64,000 nt of DNA from Sphingobacteriales bacterium. GTDB taxonomy: Bacteria; Bacteroidota; Bacteroidia; Sphingobacteriales; Sphingobacteriaceae. Shown here piece by piece: positions 7,471-63,057 of the stretch. A program made the translations under genes and the position numbers. Location: the NCBI GenBank assembly GCA_025353765.1, contig JANXOD010000002.1:1-64000 (forward strand), given 5' to 3'. The notes under the pieces were generated by a model. The model did not search any database. It had not been told where the DNA came from and saw only the letters and a program-made list of their open reading frames with translations. Numbering within the stretch: position 1 is the stretch's first letter; the number at the start of each line of letters is the position of its first letter.

Positions 7471-8157
7471 ATGAAAAAACTAGCTCTATTACTTTTCATC
7501 TTGCCTTTATTACACGCATGTAAAAAGGAACCCAAAATTTCTACACCGCCATTAACCGTAACTGATGTGGATGGCAACGTATACAAAACAGTAAAAATAG
7601 GCACCCAGACTTGGATGGTAGAGAATCTAAAAACTACCCATTATAGCGATGGCATTGGTATTACCACAATAACTAATGGAAACGATGTTGGTGTATGGCC
7701 AAACAATACAACCGGTGCTTATTGTGATTATGGTGGGGACGCTAATAATGCTAAAATCTACGGTCATTTGTATAACTGGTATGCTGTTGCAAATACTAAG
7801 CATTTAGCACCTATAGGTTGGCATATTCCAACTCCTGCAGAATTTTCAACCTTGTTCACGTATTTATCGGCAAATGGCTTAACTGCCTCTCAAATGAGCG
7901 ATAAGTTAAGAGAAACAACGGATACATACTGGCTTAACAATAATGGAGCTACTAATAGTACTGGTTTTAAGGCCTTATCAGGGGGTACCCGTGCACCTGC
8001 TGGTATGTTTAATGGTTTAACCGCAGACAGTTTTTTTTGGTTATCTACCCAAGCTAATGCTAGCAATGGAGATATATATGAAATCAAAGTTGGAGGTTTT
8101 AATAGTGGTACGCTTAACAAAAATCAGGGATGTTCTATTCGCTGTATTAAAGATTAG
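7471..8157 (+). CDS. FISUMP-domain lipoprotein (copy 1)
   Basis: 228 residues. A lipoprotein signal peptide with LLHAC precedes the Fibrobacter succinogenes major paralogous (FISUMP, TIGR02145) domain. Visible hallmarks are VKIGTQTWMVENLKTTHYSDG, YGHLYNWYAV, GWHIPTPAEF, FKALSGGTRAPAG, FFWLSTQ and the terminal SIRCIKD. The fold resembles sulfatase-modifying/C-type-lectin-like surface domains; the role is unknown. A paralog lies at 26712. The gene is followed by a hairpin and then the 21-bp repeat array. Confidence 0.85.
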   Translation: MKKLALLLFILPLLHACKKEPKISTPPLTVTDVDGNVYKTVKIGTQTWMVENLKTTHYSDGIGITTITNGNDVGVWPNNTTGAYCDYGGDANNAKIYGHLYNWYAVANTKHLAPIGWHIPTPAEFSTLFTYLSANGLTASQMSDKLRETTDTYWLNNNGATNSTGFKALSGGTRAPAGMFNGLTADSFFWLSTQANASNGDIYEIKVGGFNSGTLNKNQGCSIRCIKD

Positions 8158-26711: not shown

Positions 26712-27425
26712 ATGAAAAATAAATCAAAAATTAGAATGGCCATTTTAGCTATACTAGGTATAGCTTTAATAGGCACAAGCAGTTGTAAAAAAAACAAAAC
26801 CGTTAAACTAACACCTAATGATGGAACTGTAAAAGATGCTGACGGAAATGTGTACCATACGGCAAAAATAGGTGAACAAGTATGGATGCTAGAAAATCTC
26901 AAAACTACTAAATACAATGATGGTACCCCTATTACCAATGTAACAGACAATATGGCTTGGGGAAATCTGACAACAGGAGCCTATTGCTGGTATAATAATG
27001 ATGATAAAAACAAAACTCCCTATGGCGCATTATATAACTTTTATGCGGTAAAAACCGGCAAACTTTGCCCCACCGGCTGGCATGTACCGAGTGATGCAGA
27101 ATGGAAAACCCTGGAAACATTTCTTGGAGGTGCAGATATAGCTGGTGGACAGTTAAAAGAAATTGGTACAGTTCATTGGGAAGCCCCTAATTCCGATGCA
27201 ACTAATAGTAGTGGCTTTACAGCCCTTCCCGGTGGCGTTCGCACTGGCAAGAATACCAATGGGGCTTTCAACAGCTTAAATACAAGAGGCTTCTGGTGGT
27301 CCTCTACACCTTCTTCAGCAACAAATGCAATTTTACGCGTGCTAGTTTACAATGTTGCCGACATTGGAGTGCCCATTGACACAAAATCCGGCGGCACTTC
27401 AGTTAGATGTATTAAGGATAAATAG
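26712..27425 (+). CDS. FISUMP-domain lipoprotein (copy 2)
   Basis: 237 residues, a paralog of the protein at 7471. Signal peptide with a cysteine in GTSSCKKN, then the same landmarks: AKIGEQVWMLENLKTTKYNDG, YGALYNFYAV, GWHVPSDAEWKTLETFLGG, GFTALPGGVRT, GFWWSSTPSS and SVRCIKD. This copy has the canonical W-W-S-S version of the C-terminal motif, while copy 1 has a variant (FFWLSTQ). Surface-exposed, role unknown. Confidence 0.87.
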   Translation: MKNKSKIRMAILAILGIALIGTSSCKKNKTVKLTPNDGTVKDADGNVYHTAKIGEQVWMLENLKTTKYNDGTPITNVTDNMAWGNLTTGAYCWYNNDDKNKTPYGALYNFYAVKTGKLCPTGWHVPSDAEWKTLETFLGGADIAGGQLKEIGTVHWEAPNSDATNSSGFTALPGGVRTGKNTNGAFNSLNTRGFWWSSTPSSATNAILRVLVYNVADIGVPIDTKSGGTSVRCIKDK

Positions 27426-52458: not shown

Positions 52459-54069
52459 ATGAAACCCACAACGAGTAAGAATATTTGGATAGCTGCAGGA
52501 TATGCGGGTGTATTGATTTTGGGTATGCTGATCGGGCCGAAATTTGCCCGTGAGAATGTTAGCTCAAAAAGTGGCTCATTTTTGTCATTTAGCATGGATG
52601 GCAGATATGAAAAAGTGGATAAAGTTATACAGATCATTAATGACCATTATGTGGATTCGGTGAAAACAGATACCATAGAAGAGCTGGCAATTGAAGAGGT
52701 TTTAAAGCATCTTGATCCTCATTCTAAGTATTTAAAGCCAACAGAAGCATCTTTGTTATCTGAAGATCTGGAAGGAAATTTTGATGGTATTGGGATTGAA
52801 TATTTTCTTTTGAATGATACGTTATTGGTTACTGCTGTTACTCCCAATGGTCCGGCCTATAAAGCCGGATTATTGCATGGCGATAAAATAATCAAGATAA
52901 ATAATTCATCGTCAGCGGGTGCAAAACTTGCCAATAAACAAGTAGTAGAAGCTATACGTGGCAAAAAGGGCACAACTGTAGATTTGCTTATAAAGCGTGA
53001 TGACCAGTTAAAAAACGTAAAGGTTATACGAGATCAAATTAATATCAGCAGTATTGACGCTGCGTATCTTTTAAATAACGAAGCAGGATATATTAAGATC
53101 AGCAAGTTTGGGGCTAATACGGATCGGGATTTTGCAGAATCGTTAAAAAAATTAAAACAAGCCGGGATGAAAAACCTGGTTTTAGACCTTAGAGAAAACG
53201 GTGGCGGATATTTAAATTCTGCAACAGCTTTGGCAGATGAGTTTTTGGGTTATAAGCAATTAATTGTATATACCGAAGGCTTGCATGAGCCTCGAACTAA
53301 TTATTACGCCACCGAAGAAGGGGGTTTTGAGAATGGGAAACTAGTGGTATTGATCGATGAAAATAGTGCTTCTGCAAGTGAAATTGTTGCCGGAGCCGTA
53401 CAGGATTTGGATAGAGGAACTATTATTGGTCGCCGGTCATTTGGTAAGGGTTTAGTACAGGAACCATTTAGTTTTGGTGATGGTTCTGTTTTAAATTTAA
53501 CTATTTCACGCTATTATACCCCTTCGGGCAGGTCTATTCAAAAATCTTATAAAAATGGGATTGATGCTTATTATGATGAAGTAGGCAGCAGGTATAAAAA
53601 TGGAGAGTTATCATCAGATGGAAGAAGCCTAAATGATACACTCTATAACAAGCAAAAAACATACACTACAAAATCTGGTAAAGTGCTTTATGGAGGAGGA
53701 GGGATTATGCCGGATATCTATATTCCCATTGATACCAGCGGATATACTACGTATTACCGCAATATAAATCGGACTGAGATTTTAAATGATTTCCTGTTTA
53801 ATTACCTGGTTAAAAGAATACACTTTTCTGATTTAAACAATTTGATCAAGAATTTTAAATTATCAGATGAGGATTTTAGAATCTTTGTAAAAATAGCTTC
53901 CGCAAAAGGAATAAAACCATCAGCCTTGCAGTTAGAGTTATCCAGAAAAGAAATTCAAAAAGATCTAAAAGCCGTATTAGCACGTTATAGTTTCGGCGAT
54001 GAAGGATTTTATCGAGTGCTTAATGCAGAAGACCGGGCTATAACCCGGTCTTTGGAAGTATTTAAATAA
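52459..54069 (+). CDS. S41-family C-terminal processing peptidase
   Basis: 536 residues. An N-terminal signal anchor (about 10-28) places it in the periplasm. A PDZ domain (about 108-190, GIGIEYFLLND) precedes the peptidase core. The Ser-Lys dyad is Ser305 in ENSASASE and Lys330 in RSFGKG, spaced 25 apart as in Tsp, with Asp316 between. It degrades or trims periplasmic proteins from the C-terminus, possibly affecting peptidoglycan hydrolases or lipoproteins. Single gene. Confidence 0.93.
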   Translation: MKPTTSKNIWIAAGYAGVLILGMLIGPKFARENVSSKSGSFLSFSMDGRYEKVDKVIQIINDHYVDSVKTDTIEELAIEEVLKHLDPHSKYLKPTEASLLSEDLEGNFDGIGIEYFLLNDTLLVTAVTPNGPAYKAGLLHGDKIIKINNSSSAGAKLANKQVVEAIRGKKGTTVDLLIKRDDQLKNVKVIRDQINISSIDAAYLLNNEAGYIKISKFGANTDRDFAESLKKLKQAGMKNLVLDLRENGGGYLNSATALADEFLGYKQLIVYTEGLHEPRTNYYATEEGGFENGKLVVLIDENSASASEIVAGAVQDLDRGTIIGRRSFGKGLVQEPFSFGDGSVLNLTISRYYTPSGRSIQKSYKNGIDAYYDEVGSRYKNGELSSDGRSLNDTLYNKQKTYTTKSGKVLYGGGGIMPDIYIPIDTSGYTTYYRNINRTEILNDFLFNYLVKRIHFSDLNNLIKNFKLSDEDFRIFVKIASAKGIKPSALQLELSRKEIQKDLKAVLARYSFGDEGFYRVLNAEDRAITRSLEVFK

Positions 54070-54082
54070 GTTAAAAAACTAA

Positions 54083-54301
54083 TTACTTTTTAGAAGTATC
54101 TGCTTTAACAGTATCTTTTTTTGCTTTAAGCGTATCATGGCTTAAGGTGTCAGATTTCAGTGCATCCTGTAATAAAGAATCAGCGGAAGCTGCGGCTTTA
54201 ATGGAATCTTGTTTTTCTTTGGCTGCTTTGTCAGCATTACTATTACACGCACCTAAAATTAGGGTAGCTGTTAAAATGGATAGTAAAAGAGTTCTTTTCA
54301 T
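54083..54301 (-). CDS. Small lipoprotein, unknown function
   Basis: 72 residues. Signal peptide with lipobox LGAC (Cys 19), then a Lys/Asp/Ser-rich low-complexity tail (DTLSHDTLKAKKDTVKADTSKK). The mature part is short and disordered. It lies 31 bp downstream of der on the same strand and converges on the S41 protease gene. Function unknown. Confidence 0.75.
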   Translation of the reverse strand: MKRTLLLSILTATLILGACNSNADKAAKEKQDSIKAAASADSLLQDALKSDTLSHDTLKAKKDTVKADTSKK

Positions 54302-54332
54302 ATTGTTTTAAGTTTAAATACAAGTTTACAAA

Positions 54333-55634
54333 TTATTTTTGTCGGAAGTAGATTTGTATTGGTACACCGGTAAAATCAAAGTGTTCTCTTAGTTTGTTTT
54401 CAACGAAGCGCTTGTAAGGTTCCTTTACATACTGAGGTAAATTACAGAAGAAAGCAAACATCGGCGATGAAGCATTGATCTGGGTAATATATTTAATCTT
54501 CACATACTTACCTTTTACAGCTGGTGGTGGAAAATTTTCTATAATGGGTAGCATCACATCATTTAGTTTTGATGTAGGTATTTTCTTGAGTTTATTTTCA
54601 TACACTTTTGATGCTGCTTCCAGAGCTTTAAAGATGCGTTGTTTTTCTGTTACGGATGTAAAGACAATGGGAACATCATTAAAGGGAGCTAATTTTTCAT
54701 AAATTAATTCTTCAAAAACTTTAGTCGTTTTGGTATTCTTCTCAATTAAATCCCACTTATTAACTAAAATAACCACCCCTTTTTTGTTCTTCTCAGCTAA
54801 ATGAAAAATATTAATATCCTGAGATTCTATCCCATCTACTGCATCAATCATTAAGATGACCACATCTGCTTCTTCCAAAGCTTTAATGGTACGCATCACA
54901 GAATAAAATTCTATATTCTCTTTAACTTTTGTCTTTTTACGTAGCCCGGCGGTATCGATCAGCATAAACTCATGCCCGAACTGATTGTAATGGATATGAA
55001 TAGAATCGCGTGTAGTACCAGCAATCGGAGTTACAATATTACGTTCTTTACCTATCAGTGCATTAATTAAGGATGATTTACCCACATTCGGACGGCCAAC
55101 AATGGCATATTTAGGCAATTGATTTTCGTCTTCGGGTTCTTCTTCAAAGTGTTTGATCACTTCATCCAGTAATTCTCCGGTACCAGAGCCAGACATAGAT
55201 GAAAGCGGATAAATCTCACCTAAACCTAAACTGTAAAATATACTGGCATCGGTTAACCGCTGATTGTTATCTACTTTATTAACCACCACAAAAACTGGTT
55301 TCTGGCTTCTGCGAAGTAATTTGGCAATATCATCATCCAGATCTGTTATTCCAGTTACTACATCCACCATAAAAAGAATGACGGTTGCTTCTTCAATGGC
55401 GATAACCACCTGCTCCCGTATGGCTGCTTCAAACACATCTTCAGAGTGCGCAACATAGCCACCGGTATCAATTACTGTAAAGTTCTTACCAACCCATTCT
55501 GCTATGCCGTAATGCCTGTCGCGAGTAACACCACTATAATCATCTACTATGGCTTTGCGTGTTTCGGTTAATCTGTTATATAAAGTTGATTTTCCTACAT
55601 TCGGGCGGCCAACTATTGCTACTATATTGCTCAT
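54333..55634 (-). CDS. der: Ribosome biogenesis GTPase Der (EngA)
   Basis: 433 residues. Two tandem G domains: G1 [14 protein letters not shown] with DTGGY and NKVD, then [14 protein letters not shown] with DTAGLRKK and NKWD. A C-terminal KH-like domain follows (from about 350, [25 protein letters not shown]). Der assists 50S assembly. A TTAGTATTTAGTATCAAGTAT repeat stands directly before the ATG. The era gene lies upstream on the same strand. Confidence 0.97.
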
Positions 55635-57255: not shown

Positions 57256-57579
57256 ATGAACTTAAGACGAGATGTATTTCAAGCCATCGCAGATCCGACA
57301 AGAAGAGCTATACTTCTCTTGGTTGCTTCGCAATCCATGACAGCAGGTGCAATAGCTTCAAACTTTGACACAGCAAGACCAACCGTTTCAAAACACTTGC
57401 AAATACTCACCGAATGTGAATTGCTTCAACAAGAGCACAACGGCAGAGAAATTTCCTATTACATCAATGCAAAACAAATGAAAGAAGTAGCCGACTTTAT
57501 TGAACCATTCCGCAAAATGTGGGATGACAGGTTTAATAAATTAGAAAGCATAATGAAAAAATACAAATCAAAAAAATAG
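57256..57579 (+). CDS. ArsR/SmtB-like winged-helix repressor
   Basis: 107 residues. [19 protein letters not shown] is the ArsR-family first helix pair and [33 protein letters not shown] is the recognition helix plus wing. No CxC metal-binding motif is present, so it is the non-metal subtype that often precedes AHSA1 proteins. It probably represses its own operon through the two GTAGTYAAATAACTAC palindromes. Confidence 0.93.
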
Positions 57580-57585
57580 AATAGT

Positions 57586-58053
57586 ATGGAACAAAAAACT
57601 AAGATCAATGCTGAAGACGGTAAACAGGAAATAGTGATCACAAGGGAATTTGATCTGCCATTGGAATTACTTTTTAAAGCGTATGTAGAGCCCGGGATTG
57701 TTGAGCAATGGATGGGAACGAAAGTGCTGAAACTGGAAAGTAAAAAGCACGGCAGTTACCAATTTGAAACAAGCGATGCAAAAGGAAATATAGTATTTCG
57801 GGCCAATGGTGTGATCCCTGAGTTTGTAACTAACCAGAAGATCACACGAACATTTGAAATGGAGAATACTCCTTTTGCCGTTCAGCTTGAGTTCATGGAA
57901 TTTGAGAAACTTACTAATGACACCAGTAAACTCACTATGCATATAGTTTATAAATCTGTCGCACTTCGCGATCAAATGCTAGCTTTACCCTTTGCTCAAG
58001 GCATCAATATGGCGCATAACCGACTACAAGACATCCTAAACAAATTAAAATAA
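57586..58053 (+). CDS. SRPBCC (AHSA1-type) protein of the ArsR cassette
   Basis: 155 residues. REFDLPLELLFKAYVEPGIVEQWMG is the AHSA1 start, with the GSYQFETSDAKGNIVFRANGVI strand pair and a C-terminal helix GINMAHNRLQDILNKL. ArsR-AHSA1 gene pairs are widespread. It is 6 bp after the regulator gene. Confidence 0.92.
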   Translation: MEQKTKINAEDGKQEIVITREFDLPLELLFKAYVEPGIVEQWMGTKVLKLESKKHGSYQFETSDAKGNIVFRANGVIPEFVTNQKITRTFEMENTPFAVQLEFMEFEKLTNDTSKLTMHIVYKSVALRDQMLALPFAQGINMAHNRLQDILNKLK

Positions 58054-58059
58054 CATACC

Positions 58060-58446
58060 ATGGAAAAGAAAAAATTAATTACCTATTGGGTTGCAACAAT
58101 TTTATTGTCTTTTGGTATGTTGGGGAGTGGATTGTCGCAAATATTTCATGCAAAAGGGATGATTGACTTAATTACTCCTTTAGGTTATCCATTATATTTT
58201 CTATACATCATTGGTGTCTGGAAAATACTTGGAATAATAGCTATTTTAATTCCACGGTTTAAACTTGTTAAAGAATGGGCTTATGCAGGTTTCTTTTTTG
58301 TTATGACTGGGGCTCTTGTTTCGCATTTGGCAAGCGGCGATGATAGCTTAAAGGGAATTATTAGGCCATTTATGCAAACTGTTTTTATTATTTTGTCTTG
58401 GTATTTCAGACCTGCTGATAGAAAGATCATTTCAGTTAATCAATAA
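58060..58446 (+). CDS. DoxX-like membrane protein
   Basis: 128 residues with four predicted helices. YWVATILLSFGMLGSGLSQIFHAKGMIDLITPLGYPLYFLYIIGVWKILGIIAILIPRF matches the DoxX-like family; function unknown, possibly redox-linked quinone chemistry. It is 6 bp after the AHSA1 gene and its stop abuts the next ATG. Confidence 0.9.
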   Translation: MEKKKLITYWVATILLSFGMLGSGLSQIFHAKGMIDLITPLGYPLYFLYIIGVWKILGIIAILIPRFKLVKEWAYAGFFFVMTGALVSHLASGDDSLKGIIRPFMQTVFIILSWYFRPADRKIISVNQ

Positions 58447-59013
58447 ATGAATAGTATGAAAAAGGAATTGTCGCCAAAACAACATGGAGAACTCCTCACC
58501 ACATTAAAAGACCGTTTTGAGAAAAACATGAGCCGTCACAAAGGTCTTGAGTGGGCTAAGGTACAAGCCAAGCTCGAAGCTAATTGGGAGAAACTGTGGT
58601 CGCTCAATGAGATGGAAGAAACGCACGGTGAACCGGATGTTGTTGGCCTTGATAAAAAGACAGGTGAATATATTTTTTATGATTGTTCAGCGGAAAGCCC
58701 TAAATGCCGCAGAAGTATTTGTTATGACCATGAAGCGCTGGAGTTAAGGAAAGAAAATAAACCAGAAAACAGTGTTATTGGTATGGCTACTGCCATGGGA
58801 ATTGAGTTGTTAACGGAAGAACAATACCGGGAGCTACAACAACTTGGAAATTTTGATATGAAAACATCGAGTTGGGTAAAAACACCCGGTGATATTAGAA
58901 AACTCGGTGGCGCCCTCTTTTGTGATCGCCGCTATGACACGGTTTTTGTTTATCACAATGGTGCAGAATCTTACTATGCCGCCAGAGGATTTCGTGGATC
59001 GTTAAGGCTCTAA
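58447..59013 (+). CDS. DUF4256 protein
   Basis: 188 residues, cytoplasmic. Family marks: LLTTLKDRFEKNMSRHKGLEW, ETHGEPDVVGLDKKTGEYIFYDCSAESPKCRRS, and GGALFCDRRYDTVFVYHNGAESYYAARGFRG at the end. Function unknown; such genes commonly travel with AHSA1, DoxX and DUF1801/YdeI genes. Its ATG directly follows the DoxX stop. Confidence 0.92.
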   Translation: MNSMKKELSPKQHGELLTTLKDRFEKNMSRHKGLEWAKVQAKLEANWEKLWSLNEMEETHGEPDVVGLDKKTGEYIFYDCSAESPKCRRSICYDHEALELRKENKPENSVIGMATAMGIELLTEEQYRELQQLGNFDMKTSSWVKTPGDIRKLGGALFCDRRYDTVFVYHNGAESYYAARGFRGSLRL

Positions 59014-59026
59014 CAAAATAATATAT

Positions 59027-59623
59027 ATGATAAAGAGAGAAGTAAATCCTAAAGTTGATTTTTATTTTAGTAAAGCCAACAAATGGCAGGAAGAAATTAG
59101 GGAATTGAGAAAGATCGTTCTTGACTGCGGACTGACCGAAGAATTGAAGTGGGGCTGTCCCTGTTATACATTTCAGAAAAGCAACGTTGTTTTAATTCAT
59201 GTATTTAAAGAATACTGTGCATTTCTGTTTTTCAAAGGTGTTTTGTTAAATGATCCCAATGGTATTCTAATCCAACAAACAAAGAATGTGCAGACGGGGC
59301 GCCAGATTCGCTTCACCAATACTCGGGAAATAGTTGAGATGGAACCCATCCTGAAAGCCTATATTTTTGAAGCCCTTGAAGTGGAAAAAGCCGGTTTGAA
59401 AGTAGAACTTAAAAAGCCTGCAGAATATAAAATCCCTGAAGAATTTCAAAAGAAATTAGATAAGATCTCTGTCTTAAAAACTGCTTTTAGTGCATTAACG
59501 CCGGGACGACAAAGAGCATACATTCTTCATTTTTCTGCACCCAAACAATCCAAAACCCGGGAAACGAGAGTTGAAAAATGTATGCAGCAAATTCTCAATG
59601 GAAAGGGATTAAATGATGAGTAA
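59027..59623 (+). CDS. YdeI/DUF1801 family protein
   Basis: 198 residues. An N-terminal DUF1801 region (VDFYFSKANKWQEEIRELRKIVLDCGLTEELKWGCPCYTF) is followed by the YdeI-type C-terminus (FQKKLDKISVLKTAFSALTPGRQRAYILHFSAPKQSKTRETRVEKCMQQIL). This iron/stress-associated family is of unknown function. It is the last gene of the ArsR cassette and converges on the desaturase gene. Confidence 0.92.
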   Translation: MIKREVNPKVDFYFSKANKWQEEIRELRKIVLDCGLTEELKWGCPCYTFQKSNVVLIHVFKEYCAFLFFKGVLLNDPNGILIQQTKNVQTGRQIRFTNTREIVEMEPILKAYIFEALEVEKAGLKVELKKPAEYKIPEEFQKKLDKISVLKTAFSALTPGRQRAYILHFSAPKQSKTRETRVEKCMQQILNGKGLNDE

Positions 59624-59631
59624 ACTCGATT

Positions 59632-60627
59632 TTATTTAACCAACTCCATATCCGGTTTAGATTCATCGGCTAACGATACTTTACCCCGGTTACTTCTTGC
59701 AATCCGGGAGAATAAGGAGATCTCTTTATCAAAAAGAAATCGAAAAAATAATTTTGTCCATGAAGTATGGTAGTATAATGAATTATAAAAAGAAGGAGCC
59801 TGGCTTTTTATCTGGGGCAATTTATTCCATGGAACAGAAGGGAAATCATGGTGTTCATTATGATAACCTACATTAAAGGCTATGGTATTCAGCACGCCGT
59901 AATAACTGTACGTTTCCTGTTCGCCATGTGTGAGGTAATGTTCCTGTATCCAGCGGGCACCTAAGGGGTGAAGACCTACAGAAAAGAAAAAACTTAATAC
60001 CAAAAATGAAAGAGCTTTTGGGCCTAATAGCATGTATATGGCTACACAAGAAATGAGCTGTACTGCCCAGTTTAAGGCTATCCATTTATCAAAAGCCTTA
60101 ATCTCTTTTAATCGGGATATTCTAAACAACTGGAAAAAGGGGTAAAGCAATAACCAGATTACTTTCCCAATGAAATAATTATTAATTAATCTGGCTTCCC
60201 AACGGTTGGGTAAATCGCCATCTAATTCATAAACTCCCTGAAAAGAATGATGTTTCAAATGATAGCGTTCAAAGGAAACGGAACTGGGGAATACTTGCGG
60301 AATATTTGCGAATATACCAGCCAGTCTGTTGGCAGAGCGATGTTTAAATATAAGTTGATGGGTAGATTCATGTATCATCACAAATAAAGAATGATCTGCA
60401 AATGCACCTAAGAAATAAGCTGTTGCCACTATTATCCACCAGGATTGATCAGTTACTAAGTATGCCAATACCAGTTGAAAAGTAACCAGGGCTATGATGG
60501 CAATCATCGTTGCCGGATTTTTGCCAATAAGCTTCCTGATATCCGGGTTTTGTTTTAAAATCGCTTTGGTTCGGGCATGATGAGGTTCACACTCGCTCGA
60601 ATAAATGAAGTCTGTTTTTTTTATCAC
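59632..60627 (-). CDS. DES1-like sphingolipid (dihydroceramide) delta-4 desaturase homolog
   Basis: 331 residues. The full length matches the eukaryotic DEGS/DES1 family as I remember it: N-terminal EPHHARTKAIL, HESTH (86-90), FANIPQVFPSSVSFERYHLKHH with the second His box (123-127), GLHPLGARWIQEHYLTHGEQETYSYYGVLN, NVGYHNEHHDFP with the third His box (256-260), and ISLFSRIAR. It is a membrane di-iron enzyme with several helices (about 42-60, 65-84, 150-170, 185-220). The likely substrate is a dihydroceramide or sphinganine chain, since Sphingobacteriales make sphingolipids, but a related lipid is possible. Confidence 0.85.
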   Translation of the reverse strand: MIKKTDFIYSSECEPHHARTKAILKQNPDIRKLIGKNPATMIAIIALVTFQLVLAYLVTDQSWWIIVATAYFLGAFADHSLFVMIHESTHQLIFKHRSANRLAGIFANIPQVFPSSVSFERYHLKHHSFQGVYELDGDLPNRWEARLINNYFIGKVIWLLLYPFFQLFRISRLKEIKAFDKWIALNWAVQLISCVAIYMLLGPKALSFLVLSFFFSVGLHPLGARWIQEHYLTHGEQETYSYYGVLNTIAFNVGYHNEHHDFPSVPWNKLPQIKSQAPSFYNSLYYHTSWTKLFFRFLFDKEISLFSRIARSNRGKVSLADESKPDMELVK

Positions 60628-60747: not shown

Positions 60748-63057
60748 TCACTGTTTTATAAACTTGCCGGTAATAGTAGTACTGCCCCTGAGCTTTAACA
60801 AGTATAAGCCGCCAGGTAAATTACTTACCGGCACCGTAAAGGAATTAGATAATGCCGTGTTGCTCATAAATTGTTTACCGCATATATTATATATGGTATA
60901 TGAACAAGGCTTATTCTTCAATTGTTCGGGCAATACAACGGTAATTGCATCAGTTGCGGGGTTTGGATACGTGAATGAAGCTAGCAGATCAGCAGGTTTT
61001 CCTATAGCTTCTGCGGCTTTCACAGCCTCATGAATATCTATTTTACCCCAGCCCCAGGTATTGCTTCCGGCGAAAGGAATATTTCCTGTAAAGTTATCGG
61101 TGCGGGCGGTATTCTTTAAAATAGTGATTACCTGTTGAGGGTCCAATTTGGGATTTGCTTCTAGTATAAGGGCTACCGCTCCTGCTGTTACAGGCGAAGA
61201 CATAGAAGTGCCACTTTCGCTGGCATATTTATAAATTCTTCCATTAAGAGGTGAGATTAGTTTATAAGCAACGGATGTATTCATGTATTCACCTTCATAA
61301 TCCTGCTTAAATGAAGAAATAGAAGAGATAACTTCAAAACCGGGGGCAGTAATGTCGGGTTTAGTGCGTCCATCTACTGTGGGACCCTTACTGGAAAAGT
61401 ATGCAATATTGCCTACTGTTGCTTCATTTTCCAGGCTTATAACCTTATTATAAATATTAGTATACTTATTTCTTGCGGCATAAGCCCCTGCAGCAATCAC
61501 ATTTTCGGCGGTTTGTCCATCTACAATAGTATACAAATCATCCCCATCAATATAACGGGGTTTGCCCCTGCCTAAAAAACTACTCCGGCTCCAGGCATGA
61601 ACAGTAGTATTACTGCCAGCAAAAGCTAATTCAAAACTTAACTGATTAATAGGCGGAGGCATAATATCAATTAGTATATTGGGCTTATGATTATTAGGAT
61701 TAGCTGCTTCGGTAGTTAGTTTTATAGTAACAGCGTTTATTCCATCATTAATAGTTTCGGTTATACTGTTATTTAATGAAGCTGCCACAAATTTAGTTTC
61801 ACCTATCTTAATATCATTTTTATAAGCTATTACTTTCACTGAAAAATCAGTGCCGGCAGAAGCCCAGCAATCAGTCAGATTATCGCCCGGGCCCATACTT
61901 GCATTTACCTTACCTTCTTCTTCAGTTGCCAATAAACTAAAAACAGTATCTGCTGTACTAAAAGAATGCGATAAATGTATTTTTGCACCGCCATCATTTC
62001 CGGCAGCACCCACCATCAGTTTACCTTCACCGGTTAAATTATTGATACCCTGGCAAAGCAGAGAGGTGCCATCATGTGGCCCAATCTGTGTGCCTGCACT
62101 GAAGTTAATTACTGCCGGTTTATGTACAGAAGCAGCGTAATTATAAATGTACTGCATGGCATCCATCACTTTAGAAGCGGATATGGTTTCACTATTCCCG
62201 TCAAATGATACCATCACAATTTCTGCTTTAGGCGCTATGCCCTGGTATTTGCCGTTTGTCTCCCAACCAGAACCGGCAGCAATTCCTGTGGTATGGGTGC
62301 CATGTGTTTCGTCCTGCCCATCGTATAAGTAGAACTTTTTAGCAGGATTTTTATACTCGCTCGTATCAATATTTTTAATGATCTCACCCGGGTTTATGAG
62401 TTCCATTCCGTAATTATATCCTGCGGGCGGAGCAAAACCCAGCCCGGCTTGGGCCTCATTATAGGTTTGGTTCCATACCCGGGATATTCTGCATTGTTTT
62501 GTAAGCGGGTCATAAAAAGTGGGATGGGTATAATCAAAACCGGCATCAATCATTCCCACTACTACGTTCTCTCCAAAATAAGCATGCGATAGATTAAGCC
62601 CCTGGTATACTTCAGCAGCTTTGGTTTCTGTTCGAACCTCGTCCAGCAATAGTTTCATTTTTCCGCCGGTATCTATGGCTTTTATTCCATTCACCTTTGG
62701 GAGTTTAGGGAATGAATGTATAGGTACCTGGACTGTCCAGATGTCTCCGGCTTTAGTATTCGTGATCACACCCAGGTTATTCAAAGCTTTGGTATCAATA
62801 GACACATAGTCCACTTTGATAAGTGCAGCGATATATGGCACCTGGTTATGATGTATAATGCCCAGTTCCTGCTGTACTTGTGCAGTCATTTCAGGGTTTT
62901 TGCCCTTGCCTTGTTTTTCGATGATCTCCAGTACACTTTTTGCACTGGTCGACAAATTATTTTGTGCGCTTGCATAAAAGCATACTTGAACTAAGAGAGT
63001 GGCTATGAACAAGAGCCTTTTGAGACGGGTTTGAGATATTTTAGTAGTGGTCTTCAT
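60748..63057 (-). CDS. T9SS-exported subtilisin-like S8 protease
   Basis: 769 residues. A signal peptide ends YASAQ (about 32). A pro-region (to about 150) is followed by the S8 catalytic domain with Asp171 (GMIDAGFDYTHP), His252 (DETHGTHTTGIAAG) and Ser618 (SGTSMSSP); the long insert between His and Ser holds a beta-rich subdomain. The last 75 or so residues are a T9SS type A domain with YPNPATD and GLYLLKL. Its GC is higher than in the housekeeping genes. Secreted protease. Confidence 0.93.
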   Translation of the reverse strand: MKTTTKISQTRLKRLLFIATLLVQVCFYASAQNNLSTSAKSVLEIIEKQGKGKNPEMTAQVQQELGIIHHNQVPYIAALIKVDYVSIDTKALNNLGVITNTKAGDIWTVQVPIHSFPKLPKVNGIKAIDTGGKMKLLLDEVRTETKAAEVYQGLNLSHAYFGENVVVGMIDAGFDYTHPTFYDPLTKQCRISRVWNQTYNEAQAGLGFAPPAGYNYGMELINPGEIIKNIDTSEYKNPAKKFYLYDGQDETHGTHTTGIAAGSGWETNGKYQGIAPKAEIVMVSFDGNSETISASKVMDAMQYIYNYAASVHKPAVINFSAGTQIGPHDGTSLLCQGINNLTGEGKLMVGAAGNDGGAKIHLSHSFSTADTVFSLLATEEEGKVNASMGPGDNLTDCWASAGTDFSVKVIAYKNDIKIGETKFVAASLNNSITETINDGINAVTIKLTTEAANPNNHKPNILIDIMPPPINQLSFELAFAGSNTTVHAWSRSSFLGRGKPRYIDGDDLYTIVDGQTAENVIAAGAYAARNKYTNIYNKVISLENEATVGNIAYFSSKGPTVDGRTKPDITAPGFEVISSISSFKQDYEGEYMNTSVAYKLISPLNGRIYKYASESGTSMSSPVTAGAVALILEANPKLDPQQVITILKNTARTDNFTGNIPFAGSNTWGWGKIDIHEAVKAAEAIGKPADLLASFTYPNPATDAITVVLPEQLKNKPCSYTIYNICGKQFMSNTALSNSFTVPVSNLPGGLYLLKLRGSTTITGKFIKQ

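Follow-up and report, generated by a model that had tools for sequence, protein, structure and literature searches.

A DES1-type desaturase gene in a Sphingobacteriales genome that encodes SulA/CFAT: a candidate for sulfonolipid desaturation

The window analysed here is a stretch of 64,000 nucleotides from a Sphingobacteriales bacterium (contig JANXOD010000002.1, positions 1 to 64,000). It contains, on the minus strand, a gene for a DES1-type membrane desaturase of 331 aa with a GTG start, located in an open frame of 334 aa (three more open codons lie 5' of the GTG). The gene, its domains and its conserved motifs are as follows.

59632..60627, minus strand: DES1-type membrane desaturase gene, GTG start, 331 aa (open reading frame list and translation)
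60514..60618, minus strand: N-terminal Lipid_DES (sphingolipid delta4-desaturase) domain, residues 4-38 (PF08557, 3.2e-10)
59788..60441, minus strand: FA_desaturase domain, residues 63-280 (PF00487, 4e-27)
60358..60372, minus strand: histidine box 1, HESTH, residues 86-90 (H86, E87 and H90 invariant in 15 homologues)
60247..60261, minus strand: histidine box 2, HLKHH, residues 123-127 (H123, H126 and H127 invariant in 15 homologues)
59896..59916, minus strand: ETYSYYG motif, residues 238-244 (alignment of 15 homologues)
59848..59862, minus strand: histidine box 3, HNEHH, residues 256-260 (all five residues invariant in 15 homologues)

Both Pfam domains exceed their curated cut-offs (39.7 bits vs 23 for Lipid_DES, 3.2e-10; 96 bits vs 29.7 for FA_desaturase, 4e-27). 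The whole-genome profile search places PF08557 at the same position, once in the genome, and it is absent from all 14 control genomes. Among the NCBIfam equivalogs, none fits the protein. The translation contains EPH, HESTH, HLKHH, HNEHH, GLHP, ETYSYYG and NVGYHNEHHDFP, and the metal-ligand motifs are intact; within ETYSYYG, residues E238, T239, S241, Y242, Y243 and G244 are invariant and Y240 is nearly so in the 15 diverse homologues. The AlphaFold model (pLDDT 82.5) resembles AlkB, a di-iron membrane enzyme, and it also matches two chains of a chloroplast membrane motor complex; a PDB sequence search for a DES structure gave no match. The base composition of the gene is unremarkable (38% vs 36%).

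In order to describe the neighbourhood, gene neighbours were clustered across 107 loci, and no conserved lipid-pathway neighbour and no operon evidence was found. In the window, positions 57256-59623 on the opposite strand carry an ArsR regulator, an SRPBCC protein, a DoxX-like protein and two small conserved-domain proteins adjoining the desaturase, and no lipid link was seen in this run when it was read by eye. On the other side lies an S8-type protease (60748-63057), for which no match at 1e-60 was found in 8 genus members, an empty answer that shows little by itself; the empty-site comparison therefore could not be aligned. The protease and the desaturase may form a variable stretch. In one case, in genome G070, a small CrtZ/fatty-acid-hydroxylase-like ORF directly adjoins the desaturase (L166:8102-8605). 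Three similar short lipoproteins with a common domain were also noted, two in the window (7471-8157 and 26712-27425) and one at L096:8137-8814.

The human DEGS1 sequence used in the BLAST comparison and in the trees, where it is the sole eukaryotic row, did not come from a database, and what follows from it counts as a strong lead only. Over 320 aa, identity between the window protein and this DEGS1 is 36.9% (E 6e-73); for 17 paralogous FA_desaturases of similar genomes the E value is 0.06 or worse. In a tree of 74 rows, a branch with SH-aLRT 91 sets all 56 bacterial Lipid_DES proteins and this DEGS1 apart from the other rows, and DEGS1 adjoins three bacterial proteins, L158-L160, with support of 100. 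A more careful tree of 34 rows gives the same placement with support of 100/99; the split between DES and the outgroup is supported at 76/79, and the outgroup branches are long. The topology uniting all bacterial rows to the exclusion of DEGS1 is just short of rejection (p 0.06).

The preliminary description of this DNA had read the gene as a DES1 homologue, and the motifs, the two domains and the identity to the DEGS1 used here bear this out. The tree that it proposed, against DEGS and other desaturases, has now been built with that one eukaryotic sequence, and the protein does not fall among acyl-lipid desaturases that lie beyond the DEGS clade. Judged by profile and tree, the window protein is a true member of the bacterial branch of the DES family. 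It is filed here as a member of this sequence family and not as a proven dihydroceramide desaturase.

The nearest bacterial kin of DEGS1 that we saw are L158:7820-8767, L159:7110-8213 and L160:5143-6120 (family f23), which are 43-49% identical to it (48.7% for L158) and thus nearer than the window protein. Their genomes are SulA-positive and belong to another class than the window genome, and SulA is found in 8 of 8 desaturase-positive f23 genomes. The suggestion that this gene bears on the origin of DES1 is still a live question, but it concerns that other subclade and not the window protein. Viral contigs searched for a eukaryote-like DES gave no relatives.

The long-chain base available to the enzyme was examined in the window genome, which is 99.79% complete. 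A whole-genome PF00155 search returned 10 proteins, and the only AOS-family acyltransferases among them are Kbl, which is far over its own model cut-off, and one further protein:

Contig C35 of the window genome (G000), 53731-54969: SulA/CFAT-type protein, 413 aa (PF00155 search and SulA/CFAT matches)

This protein matches SulA (7u7h, 8.5e-184) and cysteate-C-fatty acyltransferase (CFAT; 28eh, 8e-180), while its match to true SPT is far lower (213 bits) and its score with the SPT model is 284 bits against a cut-off of 640. Lys281, 30 residues past the PLP lysine Lys251, distinguishes SulA from SPT (PMC9304779), and a lysine is conserved at exactly +30 in the protein of the window genome. No SPT was found among the 10 PF00155 proteins with the SPT model. 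Judged from these matches, SulA/CFAT, not SPT, is the sole long-chain-base synthase of the genome, and capnine, not sphinganine, is the predicted long-chain base. An aminotransferase on C20 that adjoins a second desaturase had been suspected to be an SPT and was rejected, since its sequence looks like that of a common class I aminotransferase. A PALP enzyme whose C-terminal part resembles CBS (L220:1483-2844) is a candidate cysteate synthase or cystathionine beta-synthase.

With SulA/CFAT encoded and no SPT, no dihydroceramide is expected in the window strain. The proposal that the strain makes a eukaryote-like 4,5-unsaturated sphingoid base is thus not supported, and nothing points to a host whose ceramides could be mimicked, a possibility that the preliminary description had raised.

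The desaturase gene is no rarity: it is a common gene of Chitinophagaceae and has a patchy occurrence in other Bacteroidota. Of 297 genomes sampled from the phylum, 30 contain PF08557 by the profile search. Most of the best 80 named relatives come from Chitinophagaceae (66-77% identical), and those of Mucilaginibacter stand at 68-72%. The window protein is 77% identical over its full length to homologues of Ferruginibacter and Chitinophaga, while the SulA of the same genome is nearer to Mucilaginibacter/Sphingobacteriaceae (76-79%, vs 62-69% for Chitinophagaceae), which supports placing the genome in Sphingobacteriaceae. Because of this discordance, and because of the 20 genomes of its genus only the window genome has the gene, a recent gain by horizontal transfer is suggested. 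The donor tests rejected neither a grouping with Mucilaginibacter copies (p 0.32) nor one with Ferruginibacter/Chitinophaga (p 0.16).

We also summarized the occurrence of SulA and SPT in desaturase carriers. All 40 of 40 named carrier genomes have SulA, while SPT exceeds the cut-off in 17, with an 18th truncated at a contig end, so that at least 22 lack SPT by the model used. Among 74 sampled genomes of the class, SulA is present in 10 of 10 carriers and 61 of 64 non-carriers, and SPT in 6 of 10 and 4 of 64, respectively. Since SulA is near-universal in the class (71 of 74), its co-occurrence with the desaturase is uninformative (p = 1). The enrichment of the desaturase with SPT (p = 0.0002, with no correction for kinship; one genus accounts for three of the six genomes) indicates that ceramide may be the older substrate, and an ancestral or parallel role of the family on ceramide is well possible. 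As the family persists without SPT, the substrate in about half of the carriers would not be home-made ceramide. Carriers in two families of other classes (f16 and f34) have the desaturase and no SulA at E 1e-100; the SPT-like matches there (about 480-526 bits) are found in non-carriers too.

From the above, N-acyl-capnine, a sulfonolipid, appears to be the most likely substrate in the window strain and about half of its relatives, rather than dihydroceramide, and delta4-unsaturated sulfonolipid the putative product; our confidence in this reading is about even. It is reached by elimination, because the genome has SulA/CFAT and no SPT. SulA/CFAT would join cysteate and a fatty acyl-ACP, and the product would then be reduced to capnine. 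The desaturase would act as a di-iron membrane enzyme with its irons bound by the three histidine boxes. With O2 and a supply of reducing equivalents it would remove two hydrogens from the long-chain base beside the C3 hydroxyl, and a 4,5 double bond in the base of N-acyl-capnine would result. Against this reading speak the enrichment of the desaturase with SPT, the lack of a conserved lipid-pathway neighbourhood and the f16 and f34 carriers in which SulA is missing at E 1e-100. A limited literature search also turned up no capnine with 4,5 unsaturation in organisms of this kind.

The DES1 product has an E double bond, Aequorivita is a genus of Flavobacteriaceae, and we know of no sequence-defined bacterial family of acyl-lipid delta4 desaturases. 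An enzyme of this last kind is a real rival, although the window protein is unlikely to be one. It would introduce a delta4 double bond into iso-branched fatty acids held in ester linkage, such as those found in the lipoamino acids of Bacteroidetes. In its favour, counting the distance from the head group would match, and the gene is widespread in Chitinophagaceae. Such Z-delta4 iso chains are known: (4Z)-13-methyltetradecenoyl lipids of Aequorivita were documented by NMR (PMC6025266), and the delta4 position in a Chitinophaga core lipid was assumed by analogy (PMC8433624). However, the window protein retains the DES N-terminal domain, and PF08557 occurs in 0 of 30 genomes of family f4, whose large genus and universal SulA suggest that it is Flavobacteriaceae. 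Lipids of this type are nevertheless produced by Flavobacteriaceae, which implies that a different enzyme is able to make them. Moreover, the documented acyl double bonds are Z, whereas DES1 makes E.

That the protein is a true dihydroceramide delta4-desaturase, as the preliminary description proposed, acting here on environmental ceramides or recently gained without a native substrate, is quite unlikely with no SPT in a genome of this completeness and, by the model used, in 22 or more of the 40 named carriers, although the enrichment with SPT in the class (6 of 10 vs 4 of 64), the single carrier among 20 genomes of the genus and the resemblance to DES1 as the closest eukaryotic sequence speak for it. 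A DEGS2-like C4-hydroxylase or mixed-function enzyme, whose product from that long-chain base would carry a 4-hydroxyl group in place of the double bond, seems very unlikely, given a third box of HNEHH as in the DEGS1 used here. On its side, desaturation and hydroxylation have chemistry in common, and DEGS2 of the same family has both activities, being a dual desaturase/hydroxylase according to PMC10499023.

Sulfonolipid desaturation, if it takes place as proposed, would be an undescribed tailoring step of capnine. Sulfonolipids are outer-membrane lipids and signals whose tailoring enzymes are largely unknown; for example, the sulfonolipid signal RIF-1 triggers rosettes in choanoflagellates (PMC3463246). 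The gene provides a sequence-defined candidate capnine desaturase, which could be put to the test in cultured carriers that possess SulA but no SPT, among them Sediminibacterium soli, Puia dinghuensis and Flavisolibacter nicotianae, and the bacterial Lipid_DES family supplies sequences for examining the origin of eukaryotic DES1. A wider proposal, in which the Bacteroidota branch is a dedicated N-acyl-capnine delta4-desaturase that yields unsaturated capnines resembling sphingosine and in which eukaryotic DES1 has its origin within the bacterial family, is tentative and rather doubtful.

Compared with known systems, the sulfonolipid pathway (Cys, SulA/CFAT, KCR/CapC) has its SulA/CFAT in common with the window genome, and the literature examined on it describes no desaturase step. 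Acyl-lipid and CrtW/DesA-type FA_desaturases have the same FA_desaturase fold and histidine boxes but form a separate branch of the tree, and the window protein reaches only 30-33 bits with NCBIfam models whose cut-offs are 350-500. The Lipid_DES homologues of Ferruginibacter and Chitinophaga match the window protein over its full length at 77%, but these carriers also have SPT, unlike the window genome. Eukaryotic DES1/DEGS1 differs in sequence (36.9% identity to the DEGS1 used here), and the cell of the window protein makes no known sphingoid base, its substrate being probably sulfonated, whereas the domain order, the histidine boxes, ETYSYYG and NVGYHNEHHDFP, and the tree placement are common to both.
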